Positions 1-16,503 of a stretch of 21,808 bases of DNA are shown piece after piece (the first letter of the stretch is position 1; every line of letters begins with the position of its first letter). The notes under the pieces are model-generated. The model searched no databases. It worked only from the letters and a program-made list of their open reading frames with translations, and was not told the origin of the DNA. Source of the DNA: a virus. Both the position numbers and the translations under genes were made by a program. The stretch is from IMG/VR virus record IMGVR_UViG_3300025418_000879, positions 1-21,808 of that record; one strand, given 5' to 3'.

Positions 1-609
1 ACCATGCACCGCCTGTATATAAACACCCACATGCTCTGAATCAGTTGCCCGCATTATTTCTCTTGCGATGTCATTGCATAGCTCTTCTTGCAAAGTGCCA
101 CGCCTAGCACACCACTGAGCAATACGAGTGTACTTACTAAGACCAATGAGCTTATTAGCGGCAATGATCCCGATATAAGCAACTCCGCTAACAGGCTGAT
201 GATGATGACTACACATACTCCGCAACTCACTCCGCACAACCAACATACCCTCATATCTATCTTCTGAATCATTTGGAAAAGCTGTTGCATCTGGTGCTGG
301 ATCATATCGACCTCCCATAATTTCGTTGTAATACATCTTAGCCAATCGTTTAGCTGTACCCTTGCTGTTAGGGTCAAATGTGCGATCAATAAGTAAGGCA
401 TCCAATACGCCTTCAAAAGCACGTGTAGCTTCCTTAATCAATTTTTCTTTATCCCCTTCCGTAACGTATTCACTGATGTTGTCACCAGCCCAGTATCTCT
501 TACCGTCCTTGTTCATACGGGCACGAATAACTTCGCTAAGTGGTCTACCGTGTTCGCTTGGTTTAAGATTTTCTATCTTTTGTTCTTCGGGTGATGTATA
601 TTTAGGCAT
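1..609 (-). CDS. folE: GTP cyclohydrolase I (FolE), 3' end cut off by the window
   Basis: Converts GTP to 7,8-dihydroneopterin triphosphate, the first step of both folate and 7-deazaguanine (preQ0/queuosine) synthesis. About 203 residues are visible, beginning MPKYTSPEEQ, and the frame is still open at base 1. The diagnostic core is clear: CSHHHQP near residue 132 carries the Cys and His zinc ligands of the family (CEHHxxP in bacterial FolE). It is followed by an IGLSKYTRIAQWCARR stretch, a TLQEEL motif and finally QAVHG, just before the expected second zinc Cys. The ATG at 609 is chosen because a GAGGAAAA Shine-Dalgarno lies just upstream, inside the end of the preceding gene, which it overlaps by 8 bases. 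Translation is therefore probably coupled. FolE alone in phages is compatible with folate or nucleotide metabolism. Here the TGT-fold and QueD-fold genes nearby favour deazaguanine synthesis. Family assignment is very secure; pathway role is inferred. Confidence 0.93.
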   Translation of the reverse strand, partial: MPKYTSPEEQKIENLKPSEHGRPLSEVIRARMNKDGKRYWAGDNISEYVTEGDKEKLIKEATRAFEGVLDALLIDRTFDPNSKGTAKRLAKMYYNEIMGGRYDPAPDATAFPNDSEDRYEGMLVVRSELRSMCSHHHQPVSGVAYIGIIAANKLIGLSKYTRIAQWCARRGTLQEELCNDIAREIMRATDSEHVGVYIQAVHG

Positions 610-1006: not shown

Positions 1007-1035
1007 ATTATACAGATTATTTAGGTCTATGTCAA
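1007..1035 (-). promoter_or_regulatory. consensus sigma70 promoter for the 132-aa gene and folE
   Basis: On the minus strand TTGACA (1035-1030) is followed after exactly 17 bases by TATAAT (1012-1007). This is a perfect housekeeping-sigma promoter. The -35 box overlaps the stop codon of the upstream DegT-like gene. The predicted start site falls within a base or two of the ATG at 1000. Confidence 0.82.
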
Positions 1036-1610
1036 ATCTTAAACGGAATTTTACGACAATCTGGATACTCTACTTCCTGGCATTGAGGTATAATAGCAGG
1101 TAACAGTTCACTACCTTTTGCGCACAACTCCAAAGTTGGGCAATAATGATAACCTAAAATTAATTCAGTTTCATCGGGCCAAGGAATGTGTAAATCTCTG
1201 CCGTCGGCTCTTTGTCGACTAAACTTGTTGTATGCTGCTTCATCATCCAATAGGATAGCACCTACCTTTCCTAACTGTAAAGGTTTGGTCCAGCCAAAAC
1301 TTAAACATTGGAATTGTCCTGGGCGGTACATACTGCGTTCAAGCCTGCGAGCAGAATCCCAGATACGAGTACCTTTAAATTGATATTCGCCTGACCACTG
1401 TTCGCTGGTAAGTTCAAATTGTATACCAAGATGATACATAAGCATAGGTACACTTAGATAGGTATGGGCTGTAAATTCTGTTTGTTTAACGCCATCGTGA
1501 CGGAAACAAAGCTCGAGAGCATGGGTACAGCCATCAGTTACTACTACGTAGGGCGCACCCGTATAGTCCGCTAGGTCTTGTTCAAATTTAAATAGCGCAT
1601 CAAAACTCAT
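1032..1610 (-). CDS. short DegT/DnrJ/EryC1-type PLP aminotransferase-like protein
   Basis: Resembles the PLP-binding large domain of sugar aminotransferases of the DegT/DnrJ/EryC1 family, which put amino groups on nucleotide sugars or bind PLP in related reactions. Visible landmarks: TDGCTHALEL (residues ~25-34, the phosphate-binding SGTxAL-like turn), AHTYLSVPM (~48), IWDSARR (~83, the aspartate that pairs with the pyridine nitrogen) and SFGWTKPLQLGKVGA (~104, containing the Schiff-base lysine). At 192 residues it is about half the usual ~370, because the small C-terminal domain is absent. It overlaps galE by ATGA and ends in the -35 box of the next promoter. A paralogue sits at 15829-16503. 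PLP-fold membership is well supported; whether it is an active transaminase is uncertain. Confidence 0.83.
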   Translation of the reverse strand: MSFDALFKFEQDLADYTGAPYVVVTDGCTHALELCFRHDGVKQTEFTAHTYLSVPMLMYHLGIQFELTSEQWSGEYQFKGTRIWDSARRLERSMYRPGQFQCLSFGWTKPLQLGKVGAILLDDEAAYNKFSRQRADGRDLHIPWPDETELILGYHYCPTLELCAKGSELLPAIIPQCQEVEYPDCRKIPFKI

Positions 1611-2554
1611 TGATTATACCAGGCCCAAGCATGACGCACAATATCTTCTAACTGATACTTAGGAGCCCACCCAGCGACTTGTGTAAATTTATCGGCATCG
1701 GCTGTAAGTGTAGCAGGATCGCCTTTGCGTTCGCCACCAATGCTGAGTAACACACGCTGACCTGTTACCTGCTCGGCCATATGTACAATTTCCATATTGC
1801 TATGGCCAGCTTTAGTTCCTAAATTATAAACCCCACTTGGAACAGCCAACCCAATAGCACGAACGTGAGCTTCTGCTAAATCATCTACGTGAATGTAATC
1901 ACGAACACAAGTACCGTCCTTGGTAGGATATTTGTTACCATAAATTAAAAAGTCTGCGTTATCTTTAATGCTTTCCAATACACGAGCAATAATATGTGTA
2001 GCACCAGGCTCTTGCCCATGCCGACCCTTGGGATCTGCCGAACAAGCATTAAAGAAACGAAAAGCTACATACTCTTGTCCATAAGCACGATAATACGCTT
2101 CTAATGCCCATTCAATAGCTAACTTAGTTTGGCCATAAGTACTGATAGGTTCTGCTGGATCAATTTCTTGGCAAGGCACCATAACAGGATTACCATAGGT
2201 ACTTGCGGAACTGCTAAAGATAATCTTTGGGCGCCAAGTAAACTTATCTTTAATTTTATCTAACAAGCGGATGGTTTTAACTACGTTGTTATCAAAGTAA
2301 ATTTGTGGATCTGTTACACTTGGCCCAACTAGACTTGTACCGGCACAATGCACAATAGCTTCCGGTTGACCTTCTGTCATTAGTCGATCAAACTCTACAC
2401 TATCAAAATCGCATTGCTCAAACCAATCAAATCGACCTGCTAAGTGTTCGGGTAACGGGCGTAGATCAACGCCAACAACTTGATGCCCTTGGTCTTTAAG
2501 TTTAAGTGCTATCTGTCCGCCAATATAACCACTAATACCTGTTATAATAATCAT
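1607..2554 (-). CDS. galE: UDP-glucose 4-epimerase-like NAD-dependent sugar epimerase (extended SDR)
   Basis: Cytosolic enzyme interconverting UDP-glucose and UDP-galactose, or the N-acetylated forms, using bound NAD. The N-terminus has the Rossmann GxxGxxG (GISGYIG, residues 6-12). Residues SSSASTYG (~114-121) carry the catalytic Ser/Thr, and YGQTK (140-144) the Tyr-xxx-Lys pair. RFFNACSADP (~166) and the DGTCVRDYIHVDDLAEAH stretch (~213) are classic GalE signatures. At 315 residues it is slightly shorter than E. coli GalE (338). It overlaps both neighbours by ATGA, so glycosyltransferase, epimerase and DegT-like gene form one tightly coupled operon. It probably supplies the sugar donor used by the glycosyltransferase. 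Exact substrate cannot be read from the sequence. Confidence 0.93.
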   Translation of the reverse strand: MIIITGISGYIGGQIALKLKDQGHQVVGVDLRPLPEHLAGRFDWFEQCDFDSVEFDRLMTEGQPEAIVHCAGTSLVGPSVTDPQIYFDNNVVKTIRLLDKIKDKFTWRPKIIFSSSASTYGNPVMVPCQEIDPAEPISTYGQTKLAIEWALEAYYRAYGQEYVAFRFFNACSADPKGRHGQEPGATHIIARVLESIKDNADFLIYGNKYPTKDGTCVRDYIHVDDLAEAHVRAIGLAVPSGVYNLGTKAGHSNMEIVHMAEQVTGQRVLLSIGGERKGDPATLTADADKFTQVAGWAPKYQLEDIVRHAWAWYNQ

Positions 2555-3726
2555 TTAAATTTTGCCTCAGCTACATGATCACGATATCGATTACCGGCAC
2601 GATTCCATTGCTCGCCTTTGCCTTCTAAAATATCTACAATGCGATCAACAGTACCATCAGTCCATGCGCTAATCTTGCCCATATTTTTATGTGGAGCTTC
2701 TAATAAGGGTGTTAGTTTGTTCATAGCATCTTCTTGCGACCAAGGAATATAAAGACGTTCTGGATCGTTAGCAAAAGTTTCTGGAAAACTGCGATAAGCA
2801 GGATATAGTACGTTACAGCCAAGAGTATCAGCTTCTGATACGGTATTAGATACCCAGTCCTGTAACGCACAATTAAATAGCACGCGACTATCGTTAACAA
2901 GATTATAGTAATCGTTTTTAGATAAGTTTTCGTAAATTTGTAAATCGCCATTGTCGCTCATTTTACGAGCACGTTTTACATAGTCAGGATTATTACTACG
3001 CAATGGACCACCTGAGAAAATGGCAAAACTTGTATCAGGATGTAGACGTTGATACTCTTCGGCTAAATCCATAAAGAAGCCAGGTTGTTTCTCTTGATCA
3101 AAACGAGCCGCAAATGCTACCCGTTTTTGGCGCTGGTCAAATGGTTTGATTGTATTGTTAACACGCTCTAAAACTTCTGCCTTGCCAAAAGCAAGTCCAG
3201 AGATATTATAAATTGGAGCAGACCAGTTAGCAATTCGCATATGAGCTACCATCTCTTCGTTGGTGGCTAATACGCCTGTTACAAATTCATTGACCATAGC
3301 TTCATAGGTACTCATCCACTTGGCCATACCCCAAACGTGTACAAAATCATCTGGATCCACCGATTGGGCCAAGCATCTAACAAAAATCTTTGGCCTATAC
3401 TTTGGATCTACTTGATCAAGGATATATGGTAAAGTTTCAATACCAGGAGCAAACATATCTTCGAAATAGATAATATCGTCGCTTGTAACTTCTCCTGCTT
3501 TCATCATCTTAACAAGATTCATCATTTGACTCATACTAAAGTAACTACGACCATGGGCATCCAATACCTGACCAACAGAAATAGCACCTGTATCATCTAA
3601 TGTTTCGCCCGGTACATATACTACATCTAATCCACGCTTTTCAAACACACGCTTATTCCATTCGGTGAGTTGTAACGTGTACCTTGATTCATAATTTTCT
3701 AATCCAATGTAGATCAGCTTTCTCAT
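2551..3726 (-). CDS. GT-B fold glycosyltransferase, GT4-like
   Basis: A 391-residue glycosyltransferase-like protein. The C-terminal half has the GT4 pattern: VAFAARFDQEKQPGFFMDLAEE (here split as VAFAARFDQEKQPG at ~203 and FFMDLA after it), the equivalent of the RLxxEKG donor-domain start. NDSRVLFNCALQDWVSNTVSE then TLGCNVLYP (~275-305) corresponds to the EX7E-type donor-sugar motif. The N-terminal domain is more divergent. No membrane segment or signal peptide is seen, so it acts inside the infected cell. It is the first gene of the operon with GalE. Start ATG 3726 has an AAAGG Shine-Dalgarno ten bases upstream and a consensus promoter about 45 bases further. The acceptor (surface glycan, protein or DNA base) is unknown. 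Confidence 0.83.
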   Translation of the reverse strand: MRKLIYIGLENYESRYTLQLTEWNKRVFEKRGLDVVYVPGETLDDTGAISVGQVLDAHGRSYFSMSQMMNLVKMMKAGEVTSDDIIYFEDMFAPGIETLPYILDQVDPKYRPKIFVRCLAQSVDPDDFVHVWGMAKWMSTYEAMVNEFVTGVLATNEEMVAHMRIANWSAPIYNISGLAFGKAEVLERVNNTIKPFDQRQKRVAFAARFDQEKQPGFFMDLAEEYQRLHPDTSFAIFSGGPLRSNNPDYVKRARKMSDNGDLQIYENLSKNDYYNLVNDSRVLFNCALQDWVSNTVSEADTLGCNVLYPAYRSFPETFANDPERLYIPWSQEDAMNKLTPLLEAPHKNMGKISAWTDGTVDRIVDILEGKGEQWNRAGNRYRDHVAEAKFK

Positions 3727-3771: not shown

Positions 3772-3800
3772 ATTATACAGGTAAAAATTACTAATGTCAA
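3772..3800 (-). promoter_or_regulatory. consensus sigma70 promoter for the glycosyltransferase-galE-DegT operon
   Basis: TTGACA (3800-3795) is followed by 17 bases and TATAAT (3777-3772) on the minus strand, again a perfect match. The -35 hexamer covers the plus-strand ATG (3794-3796) of the HNH endonuclease gene, so the two divergent genes share these bases. Confidence 0.82.
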
Positions 3801-4708
3801 CTAAAAAACTTACGCAACAAGATTTTCTGGACAAATGCAAAAAAAGACACGGCAATCAGTTCGATTATTCAAACGCCATTTATATAAATGCGACTACAAA
3901 AGTTGAAATTAAATGCTCTGTTTGTCAACATAGTTGGAACGTTATACCATCTAACCATTATTTTACTGGGTCCGGATGCCCTAATTGTAAAGCTATATCA
4001 AGCAAAAAACGAAATAAAGCAAAATACAATAATGATTGGTTTATTAAAAAAGCAATATTAGCACACGGTCTACAATACGATTACTCATCTACTCAGTATT
4101 TAGACAATAACACAAAAGTTACAATAAAATGTCGCCAACACGGAATATTTAAACAGTGGCCAAGCGATCATATGCGCGGTATTGGATGTAGTAAATGTAG
4201 CGGTAATAATAAAAAAACTAATAAACAATTTATAGCAGAAGCATCGGCTATATTTCCTAAATATGATTATTCGTCAGTTGATTATAAGGGAGCTCATACT
4301 CCGGTTACTATTATATGTCCAGAACACGGAACATTTAAAATTAAACCAAATGGCATATTAAATAAGACTGGATGCGGCAAATGTTCAACTTCTCGACAAC
4401 TAACAACTAAAATACAAAAAGGTATTATACGCAATCCTGATGATATTTCAGACTACGAAAAATACCGTGCTGAGGTATGGAAAATATCAAATCAACAATA
4501 TCAAAAATATTATTATCAGATAAATCCAACTAATGTTCGCCGCGGATTAAAAAATCACCTTGATCACAAGTATTCTATACAGCAGGGGTGGCAGAATAAA
4601 ATACCTGCGATCATTATTGGCGGTTGGAAAAATTTACAAATATTATCAAGTAAATTAAATCAACAAAAAAGTAATAAATGTAGTGTTTTACTTGAAGATA
4701 TATTGTAA
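3794..4708 (+). CDS. free-standing HNH homing endonuclease with three zinc-ribbon repeats
   Basis: A site-specific DNA nuclease that spreads its own gene between related phage genomes. Residues ~10-65, ~80-125 and ~134-177 are three copies of one module. Each starts with a (Y)DYS...VxIxC strand and ends in GCxxC (GCPNC, GCSKC, GCGKC), a DNA-binding zinc ribbon as in DUF723-type proteins. The C-terminal domain (~220-304) contains NHLDHKYS, then GGWKNLQIL and NQQKSNKC, the His-Asn-His core order of phage HNH enzymes. The last ~85 residues align closely with the second endonuclease at 5013-5741, while the N-termini differ. It lies alone on the plus strand, ends one base before the opposing gene at 4710, and is richer in A+T than its neighbours. 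All of this fits a mobile gene. Confidence 0.88.
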   Translation: MSTKKLTQQDFLDKCKKRHGNQFDYSNAIYINATTKVEIKCSVCQHSWNVIPSNHYFTGSGCPNCKAISSKKRNKAKYNNDWFIKKAILAHGLQYDYSSTQYLDNNTKVTIKCRQHGIFKQWPSDHMRGIGCSKCSGNNKKTNKQFIAEASAIFPKYDYSSVDYKGAHTPVTIICPEHGTFKIKPNGILNKTGCGKCSTSRQLTTKIQKGIIRNPDDISDYEKYRAEVWKISNQQYQKYYYQINPTNVRRGLKNHLDHKYSIQQGWQNKIPAIIIGGWKNLQILSSKLNQQKSNKCSVLLEDIL

Positions 4709-5012: not shown

Positions 5013-5741
5013 ATGCCTAAATTATTAAACCCTACACCTAATAATACTTGTTTATATTGCGGATGTCAAGCATATTGGATAAGTGTCAACTCCAAACAAC
5101 TTCGATGCGCGGAAAAAATTAGCCGATGCCCGGGGGTAATTAAAAAAGCGCAGGCATCTCGCGATGCTAATACTACGCCAGAAGAACGAAAAGCCCATAT
5201 GAAAAAAATGAGTGAGCGGGGCAATGCTGAACTTAAAAAACTTCATAATGATCCTGATTGGCTTGCTAATAAATCTGAAAAAATATCCGAAGCAGTTGAA
5301 AAGCGTGGTGGACATAGCGGCAGTAATAATCCTATGTTCGGTAAAAAACATAAAAACTCAAGTAAGAAAAAACAGGAAATAAAAGCACATTCTCGTGATC
5401 CTAAATGCTATGAGCAGGCTACTGAAACTAAAATTAAAAATGGCATTGCTATTCCTAAACACTTAAAAACTGATTTTGAATTGTACGAAGAAAAAGTTGA
5501 TAACATTACTTACACAAGTTGGCGATGGCATCAAAATAAAATCAATCCTAACAATTTACTACGCGGTACCGATTATGAGTTAGATCATAAATTTAGTAAA
5601 ACCGCAGGATTTATTAATAATGTTCCTCCAGAAGTAATAGGTCATTATGCTAATCTTGAATTGATTCCTAAAAATGAAAACAGATCTAAACGGACAAAAT
5701 GTTCTATTACCCTTATTGAATTGTACAAATCAATTAAATAA
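5013..5741 (+). CDS. HNH homing endonuclease with zinc-finger and NUMOD3 DNA-binding modules
   Basis: A second 242-residue mobile nuclease. An N-terminal four-Cys zinc finger (C13, C16, C32, C39) is followed by a basic helical linker and a NUMOD3 element (GSNNPMFGKKHK, residues 103-114), a known DNA-contacting module of GIY-YIG and HNH homing enzymes. The HNH domain (~150-242) contains TDYELDHKFS, then PPEVIGHYANLELI and KNENRSKRTKC. Start ATG 5013 is preceded by an AGAGAG weak Shine-Dalgarno. It converges on the QueD-fold gene with an eight-base tail-to-tail overlap. The nuclease domain is clearly homologous to that of the gene at 3794-4708, with a different targeting half. This suggests domain swapping within one nuclease lineage. 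Confidence 0.9.
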   Translation: MPKLLNPTPNNTCLYCGCQAYWISVNSKQLRCAEKISRCPGVIKKAQASRDANTTPEERKAHMKKMSERGNAELKKLHNDPDWLANKSEKISEAVEKRGGHSGSNNPMFGKKHKNSSKKKQEIKAHSRDPKCYEQATETKIKNGIAIPKHLKTDFELYEEKVDNITYTSWRWHQNKINPNNLLRGTDYELDHKFSKTAGFINNVPPEVIGHYANLELIPKNENRSKRTKCSITLIELYKSIK

Positions 5742-6171
5742 CAATTGATTGCGCAGGACGAGTAGTATTGTAATCAATAATACAACCACACTCACCATCT
5801 TCGCTTACACTAATCTTCATATTACGACCTGGGTATTTGGCGGCCAACTGTACATACAAGTCGTCCGATAGCATTTCCACGCTCTTGTAATCAATATCAA
5901 TAGCTTGTGTAGCAAACAATGATTCACAATAGTTAAGTACCTGGTGAAATTCCAGTTCTCGGTCGTTATGGAATATTTCAATCTGTACATTAAACTTAAA
6001 CAAGTGTCTATGTCTATTACCGAGATACGATACATCTGCTAACGCAGGATCTGTTTCGGCTGCTGGATATTTGTGAAATCCAGCCTTCTGAAAATTTACA
6101 TAAATCCAGCGTTGAGCCTTGCTCATAATTCTTACTGCTGTTTCTGCTAATATCTGTTGTCTTTGATCCAT
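5734..6171 (-). CDS. T-fold protein of the QueD / 6-pyruvoyl-tetrahydropterin synthase type
   Basis: QueD turns dihydroneopterin triphosphate (the FolE product) into 6-carboxytetrahydropterin on the way to 7-deazaguanine. The family's order is visible: a His in FQKAGFHKYP (H33), the zinc pair in NRHRHLFKFNV (H54, H56), then ELEFHQVLNY matching the IIDFxxLK strand-helix, SVEMLSDDLY matching TxExLA, and SVSEDGECGC, where E124 matches the substrate-binding Glu of KETxxxGC. However, the Cys normally four residues before the zinc pair is Leu here, and the DHxxLN catalytic stretch is missing. It may thus be inactive as QueD or have a different pterin-like substrate. Length 145 is near the usual ~120-150. 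It lies downstream of the TGT-fold gene in the same operon. Confidence 0.68.
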   Translation of the reverse strand: MDQRQQILAETAVRIMSKAQRWIYVNFQKAGFHKYPAAETDPALADVSYLGNRHRHLFKFNVQIEIFHNDRELEFHQVLNYCESLFATQAIDIDYKSVEMLSDDLYVQLAAKYPGRNMKISVSEDGECGCIIDYNTTRPAQSIVI

Positions 6172-6172
6172 G

Positions 6173-6469
6173 TTAAGCCTTCCAAAGTTCCATTGCTATG
6201 ATTTTACCAACTTCTTCTGCTACATCTTTACCCTCAGCAATAATATGAGTACTATAAGTATTACGACTATTTTTATCATCGTATCTGCGAGATTGTAAAA
6301 TAACTCCGCCTTGCGCTGGCATTACATTAAATGATAGACCGTTAACGTCAATAGACGGACCGCTACCATCAACTTCGGTGAGGCTAATACAATCATCATC
6401 TCGGTCAATACGCATATATCCAGCACCTAGCCAGTTTAGCATAGCGAGTCTCCATTTTCTTGGAATCAT
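6173..6469 (-). CDS. small hypothetical phage protein
   Basis: A 98-residue protein of unknown function. The centre has beta-strand character (SFNVMPAQGGVILQSRRYD, residues ~46-64), followed by a Thr/Ser-rich strand and a C-terminal helix carrying EDVAEEV-like charges (sequence EGKDVAEEVGKII, ~80-92). The start ATG 6469 has a GAGGTAAT Shine-Dalgarno and overlaps the preceding stop by four bases; it ends one base before the QueD-fold gene begins. It is therefore co-translated with genes of the putative deazaguanine operon. No cysteines, membrane segments or known motif are seen. Confidence 0.72.
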   Translation of the reverse strand: MIPRKWRLAMLNWLGAGYMRIDRDDDCISLTEVDGSGPSIDVNGLSFNVMPAQGGVILQSRRYDDKNSRNTYSTHIIAEGKDVAEEVGKIIAMELWKA

Positions 6470-6981
6470 TGTATTACCTCGTCTTTAGTGTATTTAGACC
6501 AGTCAGTGAACACCGCACGTTTTTGTAAGTCGTGTAGCGAGTGACACCAGACGCCTGGGTTTGTTGCCGCAAAGTCTCGGTCATCAATTTTAATAGTTGC
6601 GTTGTAGCCATATTGTTTGATATAAGGTAGTTTAACACTAATCATTGGAATAAAATTGTGAAACTCTACTAATGCAGATTCAAGTAGGCCTTCGGCTTGT
6701 TGTACATCCAAATCAAGTGTACATAACCAACCAGCTTCTAAACAGTCCTGTACCATTACTTCCCATTCGCGCCAAGCGTCGGCATCGTTGTTTGCTAACG
6801 CAGGAAAACTTTGATTAGCACCAAAATAAATATGCTCGATGTTGTTATTCTTAGCTTCTTGTTGTACTATTTGCGAATCTTGTAGGCCTACTACAAACAA
6901 TGTACGCAGACCAAAAGCCGCTGTATGCTCAACCTCTGTACCAATAAACATTGACACATTATCATGACCAGTTCTATTCAT
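6466..6981 (-). CDS. hypothetical protein of about 171 aa in the deazaguanine operon
   Basis: Unrecognised but with the look of a folded alpha/beta enzyme. It has hydrophobic strands TLFVVGL, HIYFGAN, LCTLDLDV and MISVKLPY alternating with helices, and a C-terminal segment NATIKIDDRDF then GVWCHSLHDL that looks like a conserved active-site or binding region. I place the start at ATG 6981 rather than the in-frame GTG at 7005. That ATG lies two bases after the stop of the upstream coiled-coil gene, with a GAGAAAAAGA purine run in front of it, and the eight extra residues add nothing recognisable. It may be a partner of the TGT-fold enzyme next door. No known catalytic motif is visible. Confidence 0.75.
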   Translation of the reverse strand: MNRTGHDNVSMFIGTEVEHTAAFGLRTLFVVGLQDSQIVQQEAKNNNIEHIYFGANQSFPALANNDADAWREWEVMVQDCLEAGWLCTLDLDVQQAEGLLESALVEFHNFIPMISVKLPYIKQYGYNATIKIDDRDFAATNPGVWCHSLHDLQKRAVFTDWSKYTKDEVIQ

Positions 6982-6982
6982 A

Positions 6983-7177
6983 TTAATCTTTTTCTCGACT
7001 GCCACTTAAATTATCTTGTTTAAGTGTAACAAGTTCTGTTTTTAAACGCAACCGTTGCTTCTTCAAATCGTTTAATTCGACATCATCAAACACACCAGTT
7101 TTTTCTAAACCATCAATTTTTTTATCTAAACGGTGATGTTCTTCTTCTAAATGTTTGATTCGATTTGTAAAACTCAT
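6983..7177 (-). CDS. short coiled-coil protein, DUF465/YdcH-like
   Basis: Sixty-four residues forming an antiparallel helical hairpin by pattern: RIKHLEEEHHRLDKKIDGLE (residues 6-25), a short turn with FDDVE, then LNDLKKQRLRLKTELVTLK (36-54). The second helix with KKxxLRLKxEL is characteristic of the small DUF465 (YdcH) family of bacterial proteins, whose role is poorly known. A strong GGAGG Shine-Dalgarno (7186-7182) precedes the ATG at 7177, which overlaps the stop of the TGT-fold gene by one base. It may be a structural or regulatory partner of an operon neighbour. Identity as DUF465 is by pattern only. Confidence 0.72.
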   Translation of the reverse strand: MSFTNRIKHLEEEHHRLDKKIDGLEKTGVFDDVELNDLKKQRLRLKTELVTLKQDNLSGSREKD

Positions 7178-8727
7178 TATGCCTCCAATTGGTCAAGTTT
7201 GTTTTCATCAAATTCGGCATCATCTCCATCGATACCATCCTCTACCTCTTCAACATCAAATAAATTATTAAACATAGCACGGGCATTTACAGTTTTTTTG
7301 CCTTTAAATCCGCGAGTGCCAATAATGTCCATCCAATAACGGTTATAGTGTTCAATGATAGCTTCAGCTTCAGCTCTATCCGGAGTAGCAAAAATGGCAT
7401 CAACAATGTCTTTAAAGCGAGCATGATCGCCATTTTCATTCCACATCATCTTGGGCCATGTACCAGAATCATAAGCACGGTTAGCACGTTGTACTGATTC
7501 CAAGTGCATCCAAACGTTATGCCCCATTAACAATGCGTAACTAAAACTATCCCAGCTTGTCTTGCCTTCTTTACCTATCTTATTTAGGTCGCCTGGTTTG
7601 TAGATACAAATATCTTTCATTGTTAGTTGTTTGCTAATTGGAGACTCGTCAAAGTGTGAAACAAAACCTTCGGCCACTACGGTTGGACCATATGGGCGAG
7701 AATCTGTAGAATACTTTTTATCATCTACAATAGGACTCATGCGATAGCACCATTTGTCATTGTGTGGCAAATCAATATGATGATACACCTGTCCATTAGC
7801 CGTAGCTAAAAATGGTGACGCACAGTCAAAACTAATAGTAAAGGCTGGATTAACATATTTACGAACAGCACGTTGAACGTCGGTCAATAGTACCGCCCAT
7901 TCTAATTTACTTGTGCCCAGGAAGTGCATCCAGTCGTGAACGCCTTCTTGTAATAAATTATCGTGACGTAATGCTACAAGACGCTTTAGCACTAAATGTA
8001 TATCACACATATTTTGACCACCCATTGACCAACCATTAAAATGTGTATCAGGATACTTAACAGGATCGCAATAGTCCTTCATCAAGTCATACCATTTGTC
8101 TGCTTCTGCGTGATTAGACCCTTGTAATACGTTTAAAAATTTAGCACCGCCATTTTTCACACCTTTACGGTTGGCCATAAAGTAATCGTTATTGTATTTG
8201 GTAGCATCAACCGCTTCTTGGTATGTAGTAATGCCACAAGCCTTGCTGGCCTTCTTATCGTGAATGACCCAGGTGGGAATATCTAATATCATGCCATAGT
8301 CTGCTACACCGTCTAACCATTTCAAAATAGCTTCACGTTTTTTCTGAGCTTTAGGGCAACCGCTGCCGGCTTTCCAGTCACCTTCCCAAAGTCCTTTGGC
8401 AATCTGAAATCCTCCTGAGTCACCTAATATAAAAGAGCCCGGGTCACGATTGCGAACCATATCTTCAGACCAGTCTTGTTTATTAAGATCTAAGTTGGCA
8501 TGGCCGCCTGAGTAGAGCGACCACTTATAAGGAAACAGACCTTTTTGCGGATCTAACCAGTTCAGCATTTCCATGTCTTTGATCCCGGCAGGCATACGAG
8601 CTGGATCTACATAAGGCCCGTTAACAGGATCACGCTGTTTGCCAATAAAGGTAGCGTAGAAACCTGAAATAGCTGGTAAGAATACAGCGTAGTCGTTTTG
8701 CTTGGCAGTTAGGTTATCTTGGGTCAT
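7177..8727 (-). CDS. tRNA-guanine-transglycosylase-fold protein, candidate DpdA-type DNA base exchanger
   Basis: TGT enzymes exchange a guanine for a 7-deazaguanine; the phage DpdA branch is thought to do this in DNA. The TGT landmarks appear in the right order: GDSGGFQ (residues 102-108; D103 is the base-binding/general-acid Asp), MILDIPT (~146), FLNVLQGSN (~198-206, as in TGT VQGG), FNGWSMGGQ (~220-228, as in FxGxxxGG), HFLGTS (~258, as in YLMGVG), and ISFDCASP (~288-295, matching FDCxxPTR of TGT; D291 would be the nucleophile). The Cys-rich zinc site of bacterial TGT is not seen, and the C-terminal ~200 residues are different and acidic at the end, unlike TGT. At 516 residues it is longer than TGT (~375). 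It overlaps the radical SAM gene by ATGA. The fold call is strong; DNA rather than tRNA as substrate is inferred from its phage setting. Confidence 0.8.
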   Translation of the reverse strand: MTQDNLTAKQNDYAVFLPAISGFYATFIGKQRDPVNGPYVDPARMPAGIKDMEMLNWLDPQKGLFPYKWSLYSGGHANLDLNKQDWSEDMVRNRDPGSFILGDSGGFQIAKGLWEGDWKAGSGCPKAQKKREAILKWLDGVADYGMILDIPTWVIHDKKASKACGITTYQEAVDATKYNNDYFMANRKGVKNGGAKFLNVLQGSNHAEADKWYDLMKDYCDPVKYPDTHFNGWSMGGQNMCDIHLVLKRLVALRHDNLLQEGVHDWMHFLGTSKLEWAVLLTDVQRAVRKYVNPAFTISFDCASPFLATANGQVYHHIDLPHNDKWCYRMSPIVDDKKYSTDSRPYGPTVVAEGFVSHFDESPISKQLTMKDICIYKPGDLNKIGKEGKTSWDSFSYALLMGHNVWMHLESVQRANRAYDSGTWPKMMWNENGDHARFKDIVDAIFATPDRAEAEAIIEHYNRYWMDIIGTRGFKGKKTVNARAMFNNLFDVEEVEDGIDGDDAEFDENKLDQLEA

Positions 8728-9731
8728 AAAAATTTATCAAAAAATGGTGATACGTGCACAGTATTAGATTTATTATAACTGATTTGTCTAACAATGTCAA
8801 CAAAATGTTGATGTTCAGGATGGTCAGGATCGGCTACATTGTGTTCAAAATAAGAATCCCAAGTAGTCCAATCACTCAAAGGTTGTATATCACATTTTAC
8901 ATCTAATCTTTTTCCTAATTCAATAAAAGCTGGCAAATCTTTGTAGTTGGCCTGTTGTACAACAAAACTTATACGCACTTCGCTTGTTCCTCGGTTCTCC
9001 GCTATCCATTCTAAATTTTCTATTAGATTTTCCCATTTGCCCGGTCTGCGTACCTGTTCATAGACGTCTTTAGATGCCGCATCAATGCTAATGTAGTAAG
9101 CATATACTGGTAAATTTGTTTTGGGCATTATTTTTTTAAGCAATAACCCGTTTGTTCCTAAAGTAAAATATTGATTAGATTTGGGTTTATAGTTGAGCAC
9201 CAACTCTCTTAGTATAGGGCTGGCAATAGCATCGCCTGACCCGCCTAAACTTATAAGTATATCTTTGTCAAACTTTTCTAACCAGGTCAAAATACGCTTG
9301 ATGTAGTCTTTTTTTAAGTCAAACTCAGGTCCGTCTTCGAGCATAAACATTTCTCTGCGACAGCTAGGGCAGGCTAAATTACAACTATTATCAATATTAA
9401 TACTTAGACTATAGTGAGTTTGTTGTTTGTTATGTTTTGTAACACCACAATGTGTAACAGCGCACCAAGTATATTTTTTCTGATCAATATCGTCCTGTAG
9501 TATTTTTGCTACTGGAGAATTCCATATACTTTCTAAACTATCGAAATCAGTTATTTTTCCTACCGGAACAGGTAACCATGCTTCACAATTACATAAGAAA
9601 CAGTTACCTTCAAAATCAACGCTGACATGACGACGTGGCAAATCACAACTGTACATTATTGTATCGTTGTAATCTTTGCCACGTGCCATCGACCGTAGAG
9701 TAAACTCTAACGGTTTAATGCTATCAATCAC
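8724..9731 (-). CDS. radical SAM enzyme with an N-terminal SPASM/twitch-like cluster domain
   Basis: Residues 117-124 (CNLACPSC) are the CxxxCxxC motif that holds the SAM-cleaving 4Fe-4S cluster. SLGGSGDA (161-168) fits the GGE-like SAM-amine site, and FTLGTNGLLL plus YYISIDAAS are later core strands. In front of the core, residues ~29-95 have a second cysteine set (C29, C44, C47, C49, C90, C95) with VSVDFEGNCFLC and SLESIWNSP. This is the signature of the SPASM/twitch auxiliary-cluster domain, normally found after the barrel. The start is probably the GTG at 9731, overlapping the clamp stop as GTGA; an internal ATG at residue 15 is possible. It is not QueE-like (too long, wrong motif context). 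Substrate unknown; it lies between the sliding clamp and the TGT-fold gene, so a nucleic-acid or cofactor reaction is plausible. Confidence 0.82.
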   Translation of the reverse strand: MIDSIKPLEFTLRSMARGKDYNDTIMYSCDLPRRHVSVDFEGNCFLCNCEAWLPVPVGKITDFDSLESIWNSPVAKILQDDIDQKKYTWCAVTHCGVTKHNKQQTHYSLSINIDNSCNLACPSCRREMFMLEDGPEFDLKKDYIKRILTWLEKFDKDILISLGGSGDAIASPILRELVLNYKPKSNQYFTLGTNGLLLKKIMPKTNLPVYAYYISIDAASKDVYEQVRRPGKWENLIENLEWIAENRGTSEVRISFVVQQANYKDLPAFIELGKRLDVKCDIQPLSDWTTWDSYFEHNVADPDHPEHQHFVDIVRQISYNKSNTVHVSPFFDKFL

Positions 9732-10450
9732 TTACTTTGTGCTGGAAGAATAAAGTTATAACTAGCAAGTCCTGAATCGACAGTAATCATTGCCGCACCG
9801 TCATCGCTGATTTTCATAACTTTGTCGCCATACAAATCAAGAATACTGATTACAGTCTTGATTGGCCAGGACCAAGCACGTTTGAGTTGGCCTTTGACAT
9901 CGGGTTGGAATACAAAGTTGCCTGAGTGTGTTGAGTGATCACCAAATACAAATTTAAGATCACCGTCTTCTGTTTTGGCCTGGAACGTAGTTTCTTCTAC
10001 GTTGGCTGCCGCTTGCATTTTTAAACGCTGGATAGCTGCCGCAGTAGGTTCAAACTCAATACCCCAGTTGGCACCTTTAAACTTAACAGTTTTAAGTTTT
10101 TCATTAACAATTTCACTGGCCATAAAGCGATAGTTATTCTTAAAGTCGCCTGCTTTGTTTTCAAAGTTAATGCCATCTGGAGCACCTGTATCTTTGCGAG
10201 TAATATTTAACTTGGCATCTTCTTTGTATTCTTGTAGGTTCAATAATACTTTGAGCTTGCTCAAGTTAGGCATACCAAATGTACCAACAAAGTCAGCAAC
10301 GGGATTGGCAAACGTTCCTTCTACTACAACTGAACGATCTTCGGCCAAGCCAGAGATTGTAGTTTCTTTATCTGAGCCAGTAATTTTAACCAAATCAATT
10401 ACGCCCAAATCAAAAGTATGAGACACTAAGTCTAAGAGATGATCACGCAT
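9728..10450 (-). CDS. 45: DNA polymerase sliding clamp, T4 gp45 type
   Basis: The trimeric ring that holds the phage polymerase on DNA and, in T4, also activates late transcription. At 240 residues it is close to T4 gp45 (228). Recognition rests on the overall pattern: LVSHTFDLGVIDLVKITG near the N-terminus, a central FENKAGDFKNNYRFMA stretch with the conserved Y-R-xM/FxxA feature, and a C-terminal KVMKISDDGAAMITVDSG followed by YNFILPA. The start ATG 10450 has an AAAGGAAA Shine-Dalgarno, and a strong promoter lies upstream. Instead of the clamp-loader genes 44 and 62 that follow gp45 in T4, it is followed at once by the radical SAM and TGT-fold genes. Lysine-rich surface segments fit DNA threading. 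Confidence 0.88.
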   Translation of the reverse strand: MRDHLLDLVSHTFDLGVIDLVKITGSDKETTISGLAEDRSVVVEGTFANPVADFVGTFGMPNLSKLKVLLNLQEYKEDAKLNITRKDTGAPDGINFENKAGDFKNNYRFMASEIVNEKLKTVKFKGANWGIEFEPTAAAIQRLKMQAAANVEETTFQAKTEDGDLKFVFGDHSTHSGNFVFQPDVKGQLKRAWSWPIKTVISILDLYGDKVMKISDDGAAMITVDSGLASYNFILPAQSK

Positions 10451-10516: not shown

Positions 10517-11443
10517 TTATTTTGGCATTATTCGTGCCAATATTTGACCGCCGCGGGTTGATGTAAGAACTCCAGGTTTTCTTAGCTCAATCCAGGTAAT
10601 AGCGCCTTGTGGTTCGTGCCATTCGTAATTTATTTCAAACCCGGCCGAATGTGCCAATTCTTTTACAAGATATCCGGGCGTATAACAACGCCACCCAACT
10701 TCGGCATATTTAACTGCCCCAGCATAGTCACAATTATTAAATGTAATTGCTAGTGTGCCGCCTGGCTTGAGTTTTTGATATAGCTCTATGAAATATTGTT
10801 TTATGACCTGTAAAGGTTTAAAATCAAAATACATAAAGGCAACACAGATACCGAACTGGCCGTCAGGTATATGCTCAAAGTACACTTGGTTGTTTATGTC
10901 ATCAATAGTATATTGTCTTACCCTATTTTTATACACATCATTAAAACTATCAATAGTGGGAGCCAATAAATCGTAACTATGATCTAAAACATATAATGGC
11001 TCGGCGCTCAACAGTTGCGTAATGAAATTTTCTTTAGCTGGGCGAATAAACATAGCGGCGTGTTGCCAGCCTACATAAAATTTCAATCTTGTTCTAATAA
11101 TATCTTTAACTTCTTCGTGAACATTTAATCTTAGATCTAAAATATGATCGGGTAAAAACTTTGGAAATTCTTCGTGCAATTGATAACTTAGCTGAAATAA
11201 CGGTTTTTCTTCCTGCTCAATAGTTAATTTTAAGTCTTGTTTTATTTTAACAAAAGTTTCATTAAATTCCTCAAGCGAATGATTTATTGCACTTAAGTTG
11301 CTAATTAGGTCGCTACTTTTAGTCAAATAGATAAACTGCTCCAACTCGGCGTTGACTAATCGGATAGTATTGGTCGTAGAAAGTTTATTCAATGTTTCTT
11401 GATAATAAACAAGGTCGCTTAGTTTTTTCATTTTAGAATTCAA
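10517..11443 (-). CDS. class I SAM-methyltransferase-like protein with helical N-terminal domain
   Basis: The second half resembles a Rossmann-type methyltransferase: YVLDHSYDLLAP (~151, motif I position), QFGICVAFMYFDF (~196, motif IV region), QKLKPGGTLAITFNN (~223-237, the post-motif LKPGG loop and strand), and AHSAGFEINYEW (~264). Motif I lacks the usual GxGxG, so SAM binding may be altered. Residues ~1-120 are predicted mostly helical. The frame opens inside the last codons of the polymerase gene (ATG 11443), but another ATG at 11431, one base after the polymerase stop, is an equally good start and would remove four residues. Neither has a clear Shine-Dalgarno, so reinitiation after gp43 is likely. 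Target (DNA, protein or small molecule) unknown. Confidence 0.7.
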   Translation of the reverse strand: MNSKMKKLSDLVYYQETLNKLSTTNTIRLVNAELEQFIYLTKSSDLISNLSAINHSLEEFNETFVKIKQDLKLTIEQEEKPLFQLSYQLHEEFPKFLPDHILDLRLNVHEEVKDIIRTRLKFYVGWQHAAMFIRPAKENFITQLLSAEPLYVLDHSYDLLAPTIDSFNDVYKNRVRQYTIDDINNQVYFEHIPDGQFGICVAFMYFDFKPLQVIKQYFIELYQKLKPGGTLAITFNNCDYAGAVKYAEVGWRCYTPGYLVKELAHSAGFEINYEWHEPQGAITWIELRKPGVLTSTRGGQILARIMPK

Positions 11444-14090
11444 ACAAATTAGTAAATGTATTTTCAGTATTAGTAGCTGATGCTAAATCCCAATCCAATA
11501 CACCAAGCAAATTATCTACTTTCTGGTCCACAACAGTAGCTTCCATTAAAGCATCATCAAATGGCAATTCAGTAAACCATGCGGGTAATCTGGTTTCATC
11601 CGTAGGATAGCCAATCGAAGTCCAACCCAAGGGATTAGGTTTTAATTTACATACAATAGTTTTCATACCATCGACAATCTTAGCAGAATAGTTATCGCTG
11701 TTCATACGACGTAGGTTATTCCAATTCAGTGCCGCACGAACGTGCCCGGGCATATTGGCCTTGCCTTCTTTTTCTTCTTTGGCACCGTATGCAGTTAAAT
11801 TGTTTACACGCTTAGGTGAACCTTTTTCCCAAGCTGGTCTTTCCATAAACTCATACTTGAACTCGCGAATGCGTTCTACAATGGCTTCGCGAGGAGTTCC
11901 TGTCAGGACCTTCTCAAGAATTTCATATAGGAACTCCTGGATAACCTTGGGAGTATCTGAACGCTTCAAGTCTAAGCCCATAGCTTTAATCTTACCTGGG
12001 TTACCATCTACGTCAAGGCGTTTGCCTTCTAAATCATAGATTAGCACGGCATAGCGTTTTTTAGTAATAAACAAACTATTGGACGCGACTAATTCGCGAC
12101 CTGCCTTAATAAGCTCGCCAGCTTCTCGCGGGCAATGGAATGCCTGCTCCATAAACGCAGGAAATGATTCGTTTACTTGATCAGCAATGTTGTCATATAA
12201 CTGAATACACATTTCTCTTGACCAGGTCATACGACCTTCGGCAACTTCTTTTTTGATAGCAGGCCAAGCAGTGAAGTAACAGGAGTCTGTATCACCATAG
12301 ATAATTGCTTCGCCCACGTGATCCTTAACGCCAGTTACACACTCGTTAATATAACCAGCCATATGTCGAGCGATTGCTCGTCCTGTTAAGGTAGTTGACT
12401 GCCCAATGCGTTTATCAAAAAAACGACAATGCGGATTTAAAATAGCGCCATACAAACTATTCAAGTTAATCTTTTTAACTAACTGTCGTTTATCCCAGAA
12501 GGCAATTTCTTTAGGATCTGTAGCGTCTTTCTTCTTGGCCTGTAATTCTTTACGTTCAGCATACCAACGCTCTAACAAGCCTGGAACAACACCCTTCTTT
12601 TCGTAAGTAACAATAGTGCCGTTGGCTGTTAGCATCCAAGGTTGATTACTGTTAAAGATCATATTCCAAACTTCTTTGGCAGAATGTACTGACTGGTCTC
12701 CGTCCTGCCAGTCAATAGTAATTTCTGTACCTGCTTGTTGTTCCATTACTGCTGTATATTCAAATGAGCCAAAGATATTTTCCCAGGCAGCCGCAAACGA
12801 TTTCTTTTTGTTTTCAACCAAATCATTAATATAGTGATTGGTAATAGTTGGGCGTAGCTGTCCTACAACAGTTTCCATTCCCATATTGAGCGCACGAATA
12901 GCTGATGGATATAGTGAGTTAATATCAACCGCTCCTACCCACTCATGTACACCTTTTTTAGGATAAGCAACATACGCACCAGCTGCCGCGGTATCTTCCT
13001 CGTCGCGATGTTTACGATTAGGCACTACAAGTTCGCGTTCGTGTGCTTCATTAATAATAGCCTGCTCTGTAACAGCTACCGCACCCATAACAGTTGGCAG
13101 TAATACAGTATTATCATGCGCAATTTCATTAGCTAGATCAATGAACTGTAGCTTCTTATCTAATTTGTCTAACAGTAAAGTATCCTGACGGTTATATTCA
13201 ATAAACTTTTTAAAGTTTTGATTATACAGTTGATCCAAGGTGCCTTCATAGGCTGTCTTAGTTTCGCCTAGCTCATATTCGCCAATGGCGTCTAAGCTAT
13301 AGCTGTGCCGCTCCTCATAGGTGTATTTGCGGTACAACTGCATATAGTCCATATGAACACGGCCTACTAGGTCATATGTTTCTGATTCAGCGCCAAATCG
13401 TTCAAAGGTTCGCGGTTTAGGGAATTGTCCCCACAAGCAAAAACGGCGTGTGTCGTCCTTACTTAACACCCGAGTGATGCGATTCACTGTGTAAGGTATA
13501 TCATAGCCTTCTGAATTCCAACCTGACAGTACGTCAGCATCCTCAATCAAATCTAGGAATGTTTTTAACATTTCCCCTTCGTCTGAGAATACAATAGTAT
13601 TTTCAAAATCCTTGGCAATATCTTGCCCTGTTTCAAGACTCATGTGTTTGGGTGGAATTACTAGTGTAACTAGTTGCTCCATCCACTGTAGATAAACAGA
13701 TATGGCTGTGACCGCATTAAACGGATCTGAAGTGGGAGAGAAGCCACGCTTTTGATCAAAGTCCACTTCGATGTCAAAAAATGCGACATTTAGTTTAGGA
13801 GAGTTTCGACCTTTGTAGTTGTTTTCTAGACAGCGAAAGATAGGGTTAATGTCAGACTCATAGAGGTTTTTACCCTTGGCCATGGCCTGTTCTTTGCGAA
13901 ATTCTTTACCGCTGCGAGTTGAGAAGCGAGTAACTGGAGTACCGTAGATGCTGGTAAACTTGCCATGAGGATCGTCATAATAAAACAAATACTCCGCAGG
14001 GTATTCTTTATAAACACGCTCGCCGTTGATGCGTTCTACAACGTGAATACGGTCATGCTCGCGATCATATAGTGAATCAACGTAACTCAT
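11433..14090 (-). CDS. 43: replicative family B DNA polymerase with 3'-5' exonuclease, T4 gp43 type
   Basis: Copies the phage genome and proofreads. At 885 residues it is complete (T4 gp43 is 898). Exonuclease motifs: FFDIEVDF (104-111), SGWNSEGYDIPY (189-200), YNRQDTLLLD (299-308). Polymerase motifs: AVDINSLYPSAI (A, ~387-398), KKINLNSLYGAI (B, ~539-550) and IYGDTDSCYF (C, ~597-606), with both catalytic aspartates present. The C-terminus ends NLFEF, resembling the clamp-binding tail (SLFDMFDF-like) of T4/RB69 polymerases, which fits the gp45-type clamp encoded nearby. No intein, split or frameshift is seen. Start ATG 14090 has only a weak AGAAAGA Shine-Dalgarno beneath a structured leader, suggesting translational control as for T4 gp43. 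Confidence 0.97.
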   Translation of the reverse strand: MSYVDSLYDREHDRIHVVERINGERVYKEYPAEYLFYYDDPHGKFTSIYGTPVTRFSTRSGKEFRKEQAMAKGKNLYESDINPIFRCLENNYKGRNSPKLNVAFFDIEVDFDQKRGFSPTSDPFNAVTAISVYLQWMEQLVTLVIPPKHMSLETGQDIAKDFENTIVFSDEGEMLKTFLDLIEDADVLSGWNSEGYDIPYTVNRITRVLSKDDTRRFCLWGQFPKPRTFERFGAESETYDLVGRVHMDYMQLYRKYTYEERHSYSLDAIGEYELGETKTAYEGTLDQLYNQNFKKFIEYNRQDTLLLDKLDKKLQFIDLANEIAHDNTVLLPTVMGAVAVTEQAIINEAHERELVVPNRKHRDEEDTAAAGAYVAYPKKGVHEWVGAVDINSLYPSAIRALNMGMETVVGQLRPTITNHYINDLVENKKKSFAAAWENIFGSFEYTAVMEQQAGTEITIDWQDGDQSVHSAKEVWNMIFNSNQPWMLTANGTIVTYEKKGVVPGLLERWYAERKELQAKKKDATDPKEIAFWDKRQLVKKINLNSLYGAILNPHCRFFDKRIGQSTTLTGRAIARHMAGYINECVTGVKDHVGEAIIYGDTDSCYFTAWPAIKKEVAEGRMTWSREMCIQLYDNIADQVNESFPAFMEQAFHCPREAGELIKAGRELVASNSLFITKKRYAVLIYDLEGKRLDVDGNPGKIKAMGLDLKRSDTPKVIQEFLYEILEKVLTGTPREAIVERIREFKYEFMERPAWEKGSPKRVNNLTAYGAKEEKEGKANMPGHVRAALNWNNLRRMNSDNYSAKIVDGMKTIVCKLKPNPLGWTSIGYPTDETRLPAWFTELPFDDALMEATVVDQKVDNLLGVLDWDLASATNTENTFTNLFEF

Positions 14091-14752: not shown

Positions 14753-15838
14753 ATGAAACGAGCCGTGTTATGTGTATCTAATCCTTATGACTATATTGAT
14801 CAATTTGACAATTATAGTTTAATGATTATTAACCCCGAAGCTCCAGTACATCGAAAACAATATTTATTAGACCGTGCTGACTGGAGCATATTAATTACCA
14901 ATAACGGAACGCAGTATAGAGATGGTGGCGACTATCCTAACGAACGACTATTTTGGTATACAAGTGGAACTACAGGCGATAGTAAATTTTGTAGTTTTAC
15001 TCAAAAACAAGTTGATATACTTGCTAACAATATTGTCAATAGTTATAACATCACTAGTAACGATAGATATGTTGGCATTATGCCATTATGGCACGCTCAC
15101 GGCCAAGGGTTTTACTGGGCGACACAACTAGCCGGTTGCGAAACAAAGTTTTTACCTATTTCTGAAATTAGAAATATAGCTAACTACTCCCCGACATTCA
15201 TTACTGCGGTTCCTGATATTCTGAGAGTTATTGGCCAATTATCGTTTGACAATTTGCGATTTATTCGAGGAGCAAGTGCTCCTATGTCAAATAATCTATA
15301 TCAATATCTTAAAGACAAATTTAATGTTCCGGTAATTGAAGCATTTGGTATGACAGAAGCTCTTAGTCATTGTTTTACTAATCCACTCAGTGGTGAACAG
15401 CGTATAGGCACAATTGGATTGCCTGATGGAGTTGAAGCTGATATTATAGATCAGCAGTTATACATTCAAGGACCAACATTGTTTACTAGCGGGTGGTATA
15501 ATACAGGCGATTTAGCGGCCCGGGATGAAAAAGGCTATTATTATATTTTAGGGCGATCAATCGACAGGGTAAATATTAAAGGGTATAAAATAGATCCGTT
15601 AAGTATTGAGCAGCAATTAAAAGAAAAAATTTCTGAGATTGAAGATTGTGTAATATTTGGAAGTCAGCAAATAAATTGTATCTATACTGGCGATGTTGAT
15701 CGACTAGCTGTATCCAAAGCATTAACTGATATACATAATTTTTGTAAACCAAAGTTTATAGAACAGCACAATACTATTCCGCTTGTTAATGGTAAGATAT
15801 CACGCAAGTGGTTACAGGAAAAATTTAAATGCCGTTAG
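14753..15838 (+). CDS. compact AMP-forming acyl/aryl ligase (ANL superfamily)
   Basis: ANL enzymes activate a carboxylate with ATP to an acyl-AMP and pass it to CoA, a carrier protein or an amine. All main motifs are present: FWYTSGTTGDSK (67-78, phosphate loop), MPLWHAHG (110-117), EAFGMTEA (196-203), WYNTGDLA (248-255), GRSIDRVNIKGYKI (267-280, hinge and C-domain start) and a final NGKISRK (346-352) with the Lys needed for adenylation. The protein is only 361 residues against ~500-550. About 100 residues ahead of the phosphate loop are missing, so the N-terminal subdomain is minimal. The frame is open and intact, not a decayed fragment. It overlaps the DegT-like gene by 10 bases on plus. 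Substrate and acceptor cannot be read; the adjacent acyltransferase gene suggests it primes an acyl group for transfer. Confidence 0.9.
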   Translation: MKRAVLCVSNPYDYIDQFDNYSLMIINPEAPVHRKQYLLDRADWSILITNNGTQYRDGGDYPNERLFWYTSGTTGDSKFCSFTQKQVDILANNIVNSYNITSNDRYVGIMPLWHAHGQGFYWATQLAGCETKFLPISEIRNIANYSPTFITAVPDILRVIGQLSFDNLRFIRGASAPMSNNLYQYLKDKFNVPVIEAFGMTEALSHCFTNPLSGEQRIGTIGLPDGVEADIIDQQLYIQGPTLFTSGWYNTGDLAARDEKGYYYILGRSIDRVNIKGYKIDPLSIEQQLKEKISEIEDCVIFGSQQINCIYTGDVDRLAVSKALTDIHNFCKPKFIEQHNTIPLVNGKISRKWLQEKFKCR

Positions 15839-16503
15839 AAAATTATCCAAGAACAGAATTAGAAGTGTTAAAATTACAAGGGTATGACTTTAATCAAACC
15901 TGGGAAGTAGTTGACATATTTGAAAAAAAGATAGCCAAATATTTTGGAGCACCTTACGGTATTGCCACTGATAGCTGCACTCATGCCATTGAACTTAGTA
16001 TTAGATTATTAAATACTAACGCATTGGTTAGTATTCCCGCTCATACCTATATGAGCATTCCAATGATGTTAGAAAAGATAAAACAGTCGTGGCAGTTTAA
16101 AAACGTCCAGTGGGAAAAGTATTACTATCTTGATCCGCTTCCCATTATTGATGCTGCTCGATGCTGGGAATCAAACGTATATGTTCCTGGTAGTTTAATG
16201 ACCACTAGTTTTCAATTTAAAAAGCATATTCCTATTGGTCGCGGCGGCATCATATTAACTGATAATTACGAACACTACATAAAGCTACAACGTATGTGCC
16301 GCGACGGCAAAGATCGTAAATTATTGCAACAAGACGATGATATTATTGAAGTGGGCTATCACTATTATATGACTCCCGAAGATGCAGCTAGGGGCATAAT
16401 TTTATTTGATCAGTTACATAACAATCCGCATAGACTATGGTCGTGGCAAGATTATAAAATTCTAACTGATTATAATTTGTATAAAGATTGTTTAGTTTTT
16501 TAA
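15829..16503 (+). CDS. second short DegT-type PLP protein, paired with the ligase
   Basis: A 224-residue relative of the protein at 1032-1610. Matching landmarks are GAPYGIATDSCTHAIEL (~42-58), IPAHTYMSIPM (~74), PIIDAARCWES (~111, PLP Asp) and SFQFKKHIPIGRGGIIL (~128, Schiff-base Lys and the GxGG turn). It then has RMCRDGKDRK and VGYHYYMTPEDAARG, typical of DegT enzymes just before the small domain, which is missing. Two plus-strand genes are thus coupled: the ATG at 15829 lies within the ligase's last codons, with an AGGAAAA site upstream. Its end overlaps the opposing acyltransferase gene by 12 bases. Possible role: amination of the sugar that the acyltransferase acylates. Active transaminase status is uncertain without the C-terminal domain. 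Confidence 0.83.
   Translation: MPLENYPRTELEVLKLQGYDFNQTWEVVDIFEKKIAKYFGAPYGIATDSCTHAIELSIRLLNTNALVSIPAHTYMSIPMMLEKIKQSWQFKNVQWEKYYYLDPLPIIDAARCWESNVYVPGSLMTTSFQFKKHIPIGRGGIILTDNYEHYIKLQRMCRDGKDRKLLQQDDDIIEVGYHYYMTPEDAARGIILFDQLHNNPHRLWSWQDYKILTDYNLYKDCLVF

Follow-up and report, generated by a model that had tools for sequence, protein, structure and literature searches.

A putative DpdA-type transglycosylase branch in phages, encoded with a QueD-fold paralog and mostly without QueC

The locus

The window analysed here is the whole stretch of 21,808 nucleotides that forms positions 1 to 21,808 of the IMG/VR virus record IMGVR_UViG_3300025418_000879. The features on which the analysis turns are the following.

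1..609 (-): FolE, GTP cyclohydrolase I, truncated at the end of the window (PF01227, E 1.1e-26)
2551..3726 (-): glycosyltransferase-like protein, conserved in the cluster
5734..6171 (-): QueD-fold paralog, 145 aa (AlphaFold2 pLDDT 95; top Foldseek matches E. coli QueD, probability 1.00)
6466..7005 (-): orf179, conserved protein, 179 aa
7177..8727 (-): predicted TGT-fold, DpdA-like transglycosylase, 516 aa
7825..7827 (-): D301 in the FDCASP motif of the transglycosylase
8281..8283 (-): D149 of the transglycosylase
8404..8421 (-): DSGGFQ motif of the transglycosylase, residues 103-108
8724..9731 (-): SPASM/radical-SAM protein (PF13186, PF04055), an optional neighbour
9728..10450 (-): probable sliding clamp, a tentative assignment (phrog_12062)
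11433..14090 (-): family B DNA polymerase (phrog_262, E 1.1e-196)

Canonical QueD and QueE are absent from the window because it ends inside FolE. The radical-SAM protein, with a SPASM-like domain ahead of the radical-SAM domain, overlaps the transglycosylase start by 4 nt; elsewhere it usually lies several kb upstream. A 64-aa DUF465 protein (PF04325, E 2.4e-13) is found directly behind the transglycosylase at 6983-7177(-), and two ORFs resembling HNH-type homing endonucleases, 3794-4708(+) and 5013-5741(+), sit within the deazaguanine cluster on the other strand. The window also holds a pair of short ORFs, 1032-1610(-) and 15829-16503(+), that resemble DegT aminotransferases and have similar motifs, and around which sugar epimerase, acyltransferase-like and glycosyltransferase-like ORFs make up a gene set of the surface-sugar type.

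Sequence and predicted fold of the transglycosylase

The ORF at 7177-8727(-) starts with ATG and encodes 516 aa, its coordinates being exactly reproduced. The five motifs that the first-pass annotation had read in TGT order were all located in that order, DSGGFQ at residue 103, VLQG at 200, GWSMGG at 232, HFLG at 268 and FDCASP at 300, and the zinc Cys cluster that it had described as missing is indeed absent, with no CxCxxC motif in the protein (E. coli TGT has CDCYTC at 302). Concerning the catalytic pair it had named, D103 and D291, the former holds, but residue 291 is a Tyr and the Asp of FDCASP is D301.

Conservation was analyzed across an alignment of 75 sequences, in which the relatives share 34-82% identity with the window protein. 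D103, D149, G203, G232, H268 and D301 are identical in 75/75 sequences, and Q202 is variable (61/75). Judging from the alignments, D103 would correspond to the general acid/base Asp of TGT, D149, whose MILD motif hhalign pairs with MIFD of E. coli TGT, would be the equivalent of the Asp that recognises the deazaguanine base, and D301 that of the TGT nucleophile, FDCASP being paired with E. coli FDCVMP. Since six positions are identical in all 75 sequences and a structure search with the predicted fold brings up TGTs, the motif set is not due to chance.

The AlphaFold2 model built from this alignment has a pLDDT of 90.7 and a pTM of 0.89, with low confidence in the C-terminal tail past about residue 475, and predicts a TGT-type TIM-barrel fold. 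With Foldseek, ten PDB entries reach E <= 0.001 (the best 4e-8, at probability 1.00), and every one belongs to the TGT family, be it bacterial TGT, archaeosine TGT or QTRT2. Against viral models (BFVD) the search retrieved the 596-aa A0A2I7SB39, the Motura TGT, R9TGF0 of phage nt-1 and M4SLA5 of phage phiST; the relative from Vibrio phage 2.275.O likewise has 596 aa. Sequence libraries gave no TGT family match, either in Pfam and PHROGs, scanned with the window protein alone and with each of the 75 relatives, or in NCBIfam and PADLOC, scanned with the window protein, and the transglycosylase and its profile found no match among PDB sequences.

A TGT-fold protein that has lost catalysis or taken on another role, much like the QTRT2 subunit, would agree with the variation at Q202 and with a sequence far from all known TGT families, but D103, D149 and D301 are invariant in all 75 sequences and biosynthesis genes co-occur with the protein, so that we regard this reading as very improbable.

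Relation to TGT and DpdA families

The strongest relationship found is with the DpdA2 family of phage nt-1, which profile-profile comparison (hhalign) matches with a probability of 96 and an E of 3.3e-9 across the catalytic core, pairing DSGGFQ with DSGGLQ, MILD with MCFD, LQG with FHG, HFLG with HMLG and SFDCAS with SYDSST. Against 30 bacterial TGTs the same comparison is weaker (E 2e-4), and Pfam PF01702 (tRNA TGT) gives no match above its cut-off. For the 9g DpdA, hhalign returns a probability of 0.5 with no HMM match, and sequence homology to DpdA1 (9g type) was thus not found; H268 is invariant in the family, the alignment to the 9g protein, whose His at position 196 is lost in DpdA2 of the nt-1 type, being unreliable. 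At the level of single sequences, the best BLASTP pair with DpdA2 within a set of 126 sequences has an E of 2e-5, and nt-1 is not among the matches listed by tblastn of the window protein or of the 2.275.O relative against 50,697 phage records.

Pairwise similarity sets the family apart from the DpdA2, 9g DpdA, phiST and TGT sets, the nearest being DpdA2 and TGT. The profile match and this separation together argue that the transglycosylase is, as judged by sequence comparison, a separate branch related to DpdA2, neither a 9g-type DpdA nor a PF01702 member. A DNA-pattern search for a DSGG-type transglycosylase in CP220, phiST and HVTV-1 came back empty, the phiST type being DNGA by profile and fold.

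The first-pass annotation had offered the protein as a DpdA candidate, and this proposal gains support from the fold, the key residues, the DpdA2 profile link and the co-occurrence of FolE, QueD and QueE. Its view that the protein diverges from tRNA TGT agrees with the missing PF01702 match, the lacking zinc site and the weak hhalign E, and its suggestion of a distinct DpdA branch with the pairwise separation.

Distribution

The branch is large and missing from the protein libraries searched. By tblastn, 13 annotated phage records contain a family member, namely eleven PA5oct-like Pseudomonas phages (including Paride and Callisto), Sinorhizobium phage Phosso and Vibrio phage 2.275.O. Scans of IMG/VR confirmed at least 597 and at least 593 relatives, which we state as at least 590 contigs. 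Among 84,980 prokaryote genomes of GTDB, matches occur on two contigs, one of which has phage gene content though it is binned as a Phycisphaerae bacterium (L170), the other carrying a 130-aa N-terminal fragment (L171). The family is found almost only in viruses.

The PA5oct GenBank record labels its family member, EST35_0316, a hypothetical protein. A deazaguanine synthesis and incorporation system has already been stated for PA5oct by Iyer et al. 2021 (PMC7824862); deazaguanine goes unmentioned in the other Callisto and PA5oct papers searched.

Gene neighbourhood

The context of the transglycosylase was surveyed in 231 loci, many of them too short to display every neighbour, so that the counts that follow are to be read accordingly. 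The recurrent order is DNA polymerase B, clamp-like gene, transglycosylase, orf179, QueD-fold paralog, glycosyltransferase, FolE, QueD and QueE. Upstream, the polymerase is found beside the transglycosylase in 215/231 loci and the clamp-like gene just upstream of it in 221 of the 222 loci with enough upstream sequence, the radical-SAM protein appearing in 29/231. Downstream, and all on the same strand, come orf179 (196 loci, a median of 140 nt away), the QueD-fold paralog (188), the glycosyltransferase (163) and FolE (118). The identity of the clamp-like ORF at 9728-10450 as a sliding clamp is tentative: one of 16 relatives matches the processivity factor phrog_223 (E 6.7e-5), and the ORF has no match to T4 gp45 or in the PDB. 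For orf179, PHROG, Pfam and PDB sequence searches gave no match.

Individual records display the cluster at greater length. In a contig whose transglycosylase is 88% identical to that of the window (L008), the transglycosylase, orf179, the QueD-fold paralog, the glycosyltransferase, FolE, canonical QueD and QueE fall within 11.4 kb. In phage 2.275.O, QueF, YhhQ, QueC, FolE, QueE and QueD are found within 14 kb after the transglycosylase, and the gene that immediately follows the PA5oct transglycosylase is related to the window protein at 2551..3726. In Phosso (PV764938; L343, L281) the paralog, FolE, QueE and clamp-like genes cluster at about 149-156 kb, with the transglycosylase far off at 323 kb.

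This neighbourhood bears on the nature of the substrate. The protein shares its fold and catalytic residues with tRNA TGT, and deazaguanine pathway genes serve tRNA in bacteria, which would suit a phage-encoded tRNA transglycosylase that modifies host or phage tRNA to aid translation. Against this stand the lack of a zinc site, as in nt-1 DpdA2 and 9g DpdA, the frequent position beside a DNA polymerase, a nearest relative that is a DNA enzyme, and the absence of tRNA genes from the window; we consider tRNA modification improbable. The relation to DpdA2, the location within a block of replication genes and the lost zinc site point instead to DNA as the target, which is very probably correct.

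Deazaguanine genes and the QueD-fold paralog

The FolE and QueD-fold protein described in the first-pass annotation are both present, at 1-609(-) and 5734-6171(-), but the latter, though predicted to share the fold, is no typical QueD: its catalytic Cys is gone, and it marks a QueC-less branch. The ORF is predicted from its model to be a T-fold (QueD / PTPS) protein with the zinc His triad, H33 and H56 being kept in 74/74 sequences and H54 in 73/74. The catalytic Cys of QueD / 6-CPH4 synthase precedes the HxH zinc motif by four residues and is present at that place in the canonical QueD of 9g, 2.275.O and phiST; in the paralog a Leu (L50) replaces it in 74/74 sequences. These features suggest a putative 7-carboxy-7-deazaguanine (CDG)-processing enzyme, DpdL-like.

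Among 21 long relatives, several of which are fragments, FolE is present in 20, QueE in all 21 and canonical QueD in 18, three being without it. The paralog occurs in 20/21 and a true QueC in one, Vibrio phage 2.275.O. In four relatives (L275, L276, L277, L278) a QueC-like gene beside QueE has the motifs of NAD synthetase (NadE) and was not counted as QueC. NadE and QueC share the ATP-pyrophosphatase superfamily, and a role of this adjoining gene in amidating CDG is conceivable from its sequence.

The pattern extends to 19 further records, in which the paralog is present without QueC in ten more family members, phiST and two phiST relatives, and QueC without the paralog in nt-1, KVP40, 9g, HVTV-1, CP220 and one 9g relative. 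Over the 40 phage records, 33 have the paralog only, seven have QueC only, and none has both or neither; the chance of this 33-to-7 exclusion is about 5e-8 when related phages are counted as independent, kinship being ignored. As phiST has canonical QueD plus the paralog and a transglycosylase of another type, the exclusion thus spans unrelated transglycosylases. In the simplest reading of these gene contents, the paralog and QueC would be alternative users of CDG. In the two phiST relatives (L363 4082-4996, L365 2489-3457) the paralog forms a fusion with a P-loop kinase-like domain, as read from its motif; phiST encodes this domain in an adjacent ORF of its own.

A CDG decarboxylase, DpdL, has reportedly been predicted in phages with dDG. 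Hutinet et al. already considered CDG as a possible modification for a phage lacking QueC. The main competing explanation has a DpdA-type enzyme insert preQ0, with FolE, QueD and QueE of the phage only boosting CDG and host QueC finishing the conversion to preQ0. Its appeal is that the nearest relative, nt-1 DpdA2, goes with dPreQ0 DNA (nt-1 DNA contains dPreQ0, dADG and dG+; PMC6884629), that the 2.275.O member sits with QueC and QueF, and that a host QueC could still act on CDG. QueC is nevertheless missing from 30 of the 31 long family-bearing records, every one of those 30 having the paralog, which a phage leaning on host QueC would not need, and preQ0 insertion seems to us possible but rather unlikely. 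Given the lack of QueC and the QueD-fold paralog in its stead, the balance tips slightly towards 7-deazaguanine or CDG, and not preQ0, as the inserted base.

Proposed function

With a confidence close to that given to the DNA target, we propose that the gene encodes a DpdA-type DNA transglycosylase fed by a QueC-less pathway, in which the paralog acts on CDG and the outcome is resistance to restriction. The observed parts of this explanation are the fold, the residues, their conservation, the gene association and the QueC/paralog exclusion. Phage FolE, QueD and QueE would convert GTP to CDG; with QueC lacking, the Cys-less paralog would probably take CDG, its reaction most simply being removal of the carboxyl to yield 7-deazaguanine. 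Covalent base exchange on an Asp is established TGT chemistry. By this chemistry, the transglycosylase would break the glycosidic bond of guanine in phage DNA with D301 as nucleophile, guanine leaving from a covalent intermediate on D301. The new base, held by D149, Q202 and the G232-G237 loop, would then attack with D103 as acid/base, so that deazaguanine stays in the strand. The altered DNA would resist host restriction enzymes, and protection from restriction is the likely purpose by analogy with PMC6884629.

In its widest form, the proposal is that a widespread, hitherto unmodelled DpdA branch in T4-like and jumbo phages writes 7-deazaguanine or CDG into the phage DNA, the QueD-fold paralog replacing QueC at the CDG branch point, perhaps at the replication fork via the neighbouring clamp. 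We put this forward tentatively, with slightly more doubt than belief.

Deazaguanine DNA, DpdA enzymes, their anti-restriction role and, from PMC7824862, the PA5oct system are already known. New, as far as the sources show, are the family as a branch of its own that the searched libraries lack, how widely it occurs, and the mutual exclusion of QueC and paralog, which predicts a base other than preQ0. The analysis puts a predicted function on a family that occurs in at least 590 environmental phage contigs and that carries the label hypothetical in well-studied Pseudomonas jumbo phages. Member phages are predicted to carry deazaguanine DNA, which would affect their restriction, sequencing and engineering, and the strict exclusion of QueC by the paralog offers a direct and testable rule by which a phage's genes would indicate its modified base.

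Comparison with known systems

The jumbo phage PA5oct has a family member together with FolE, QueD, QueE and the QueD-fold paralog; the passage of PMC7824862 that concerns it leaves the family and the QueC-less branch undefined. The tRNA-guanine transglycosylases (PF01702) share the fold, the catalytic Asp pair and the base-recognition Asp, and differ in the lack of a Pfam match, the absent zinc site and the C-terminus. Enterobacteria phage 9g DpdA is likewise a phage DNA transglycosylase without a CxCxxC zinc motif, encoded next to polymerase and clamp genes, but it has 317 aa, its profile similarity is undetectable and it goes with a Gat-QueC pathway to dG+. The TGT-like protein of Cellulophaga phage phiST (UniProt M4SLA5), presumably a DpdA3, is a structural match (probability 1.00) from a phage that also has the paralog, QueD, QueE and FolE and no QueC; it differs in its 259 aa, in DNGA in place of DSGG and in having no significant profile match. 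Closest is nt-1 DpdA2 (YP_008125322). Its similarity is at the profile level only, and nt-1 has QueC and no QueD-fold paralog, yet it shares the TGT fold, the DSGG-Q, MxxD, HxLG and S(F/Y)D motifs, the lack of a CxCxxC zinc site and the presence of deazaguanine genes nearby.
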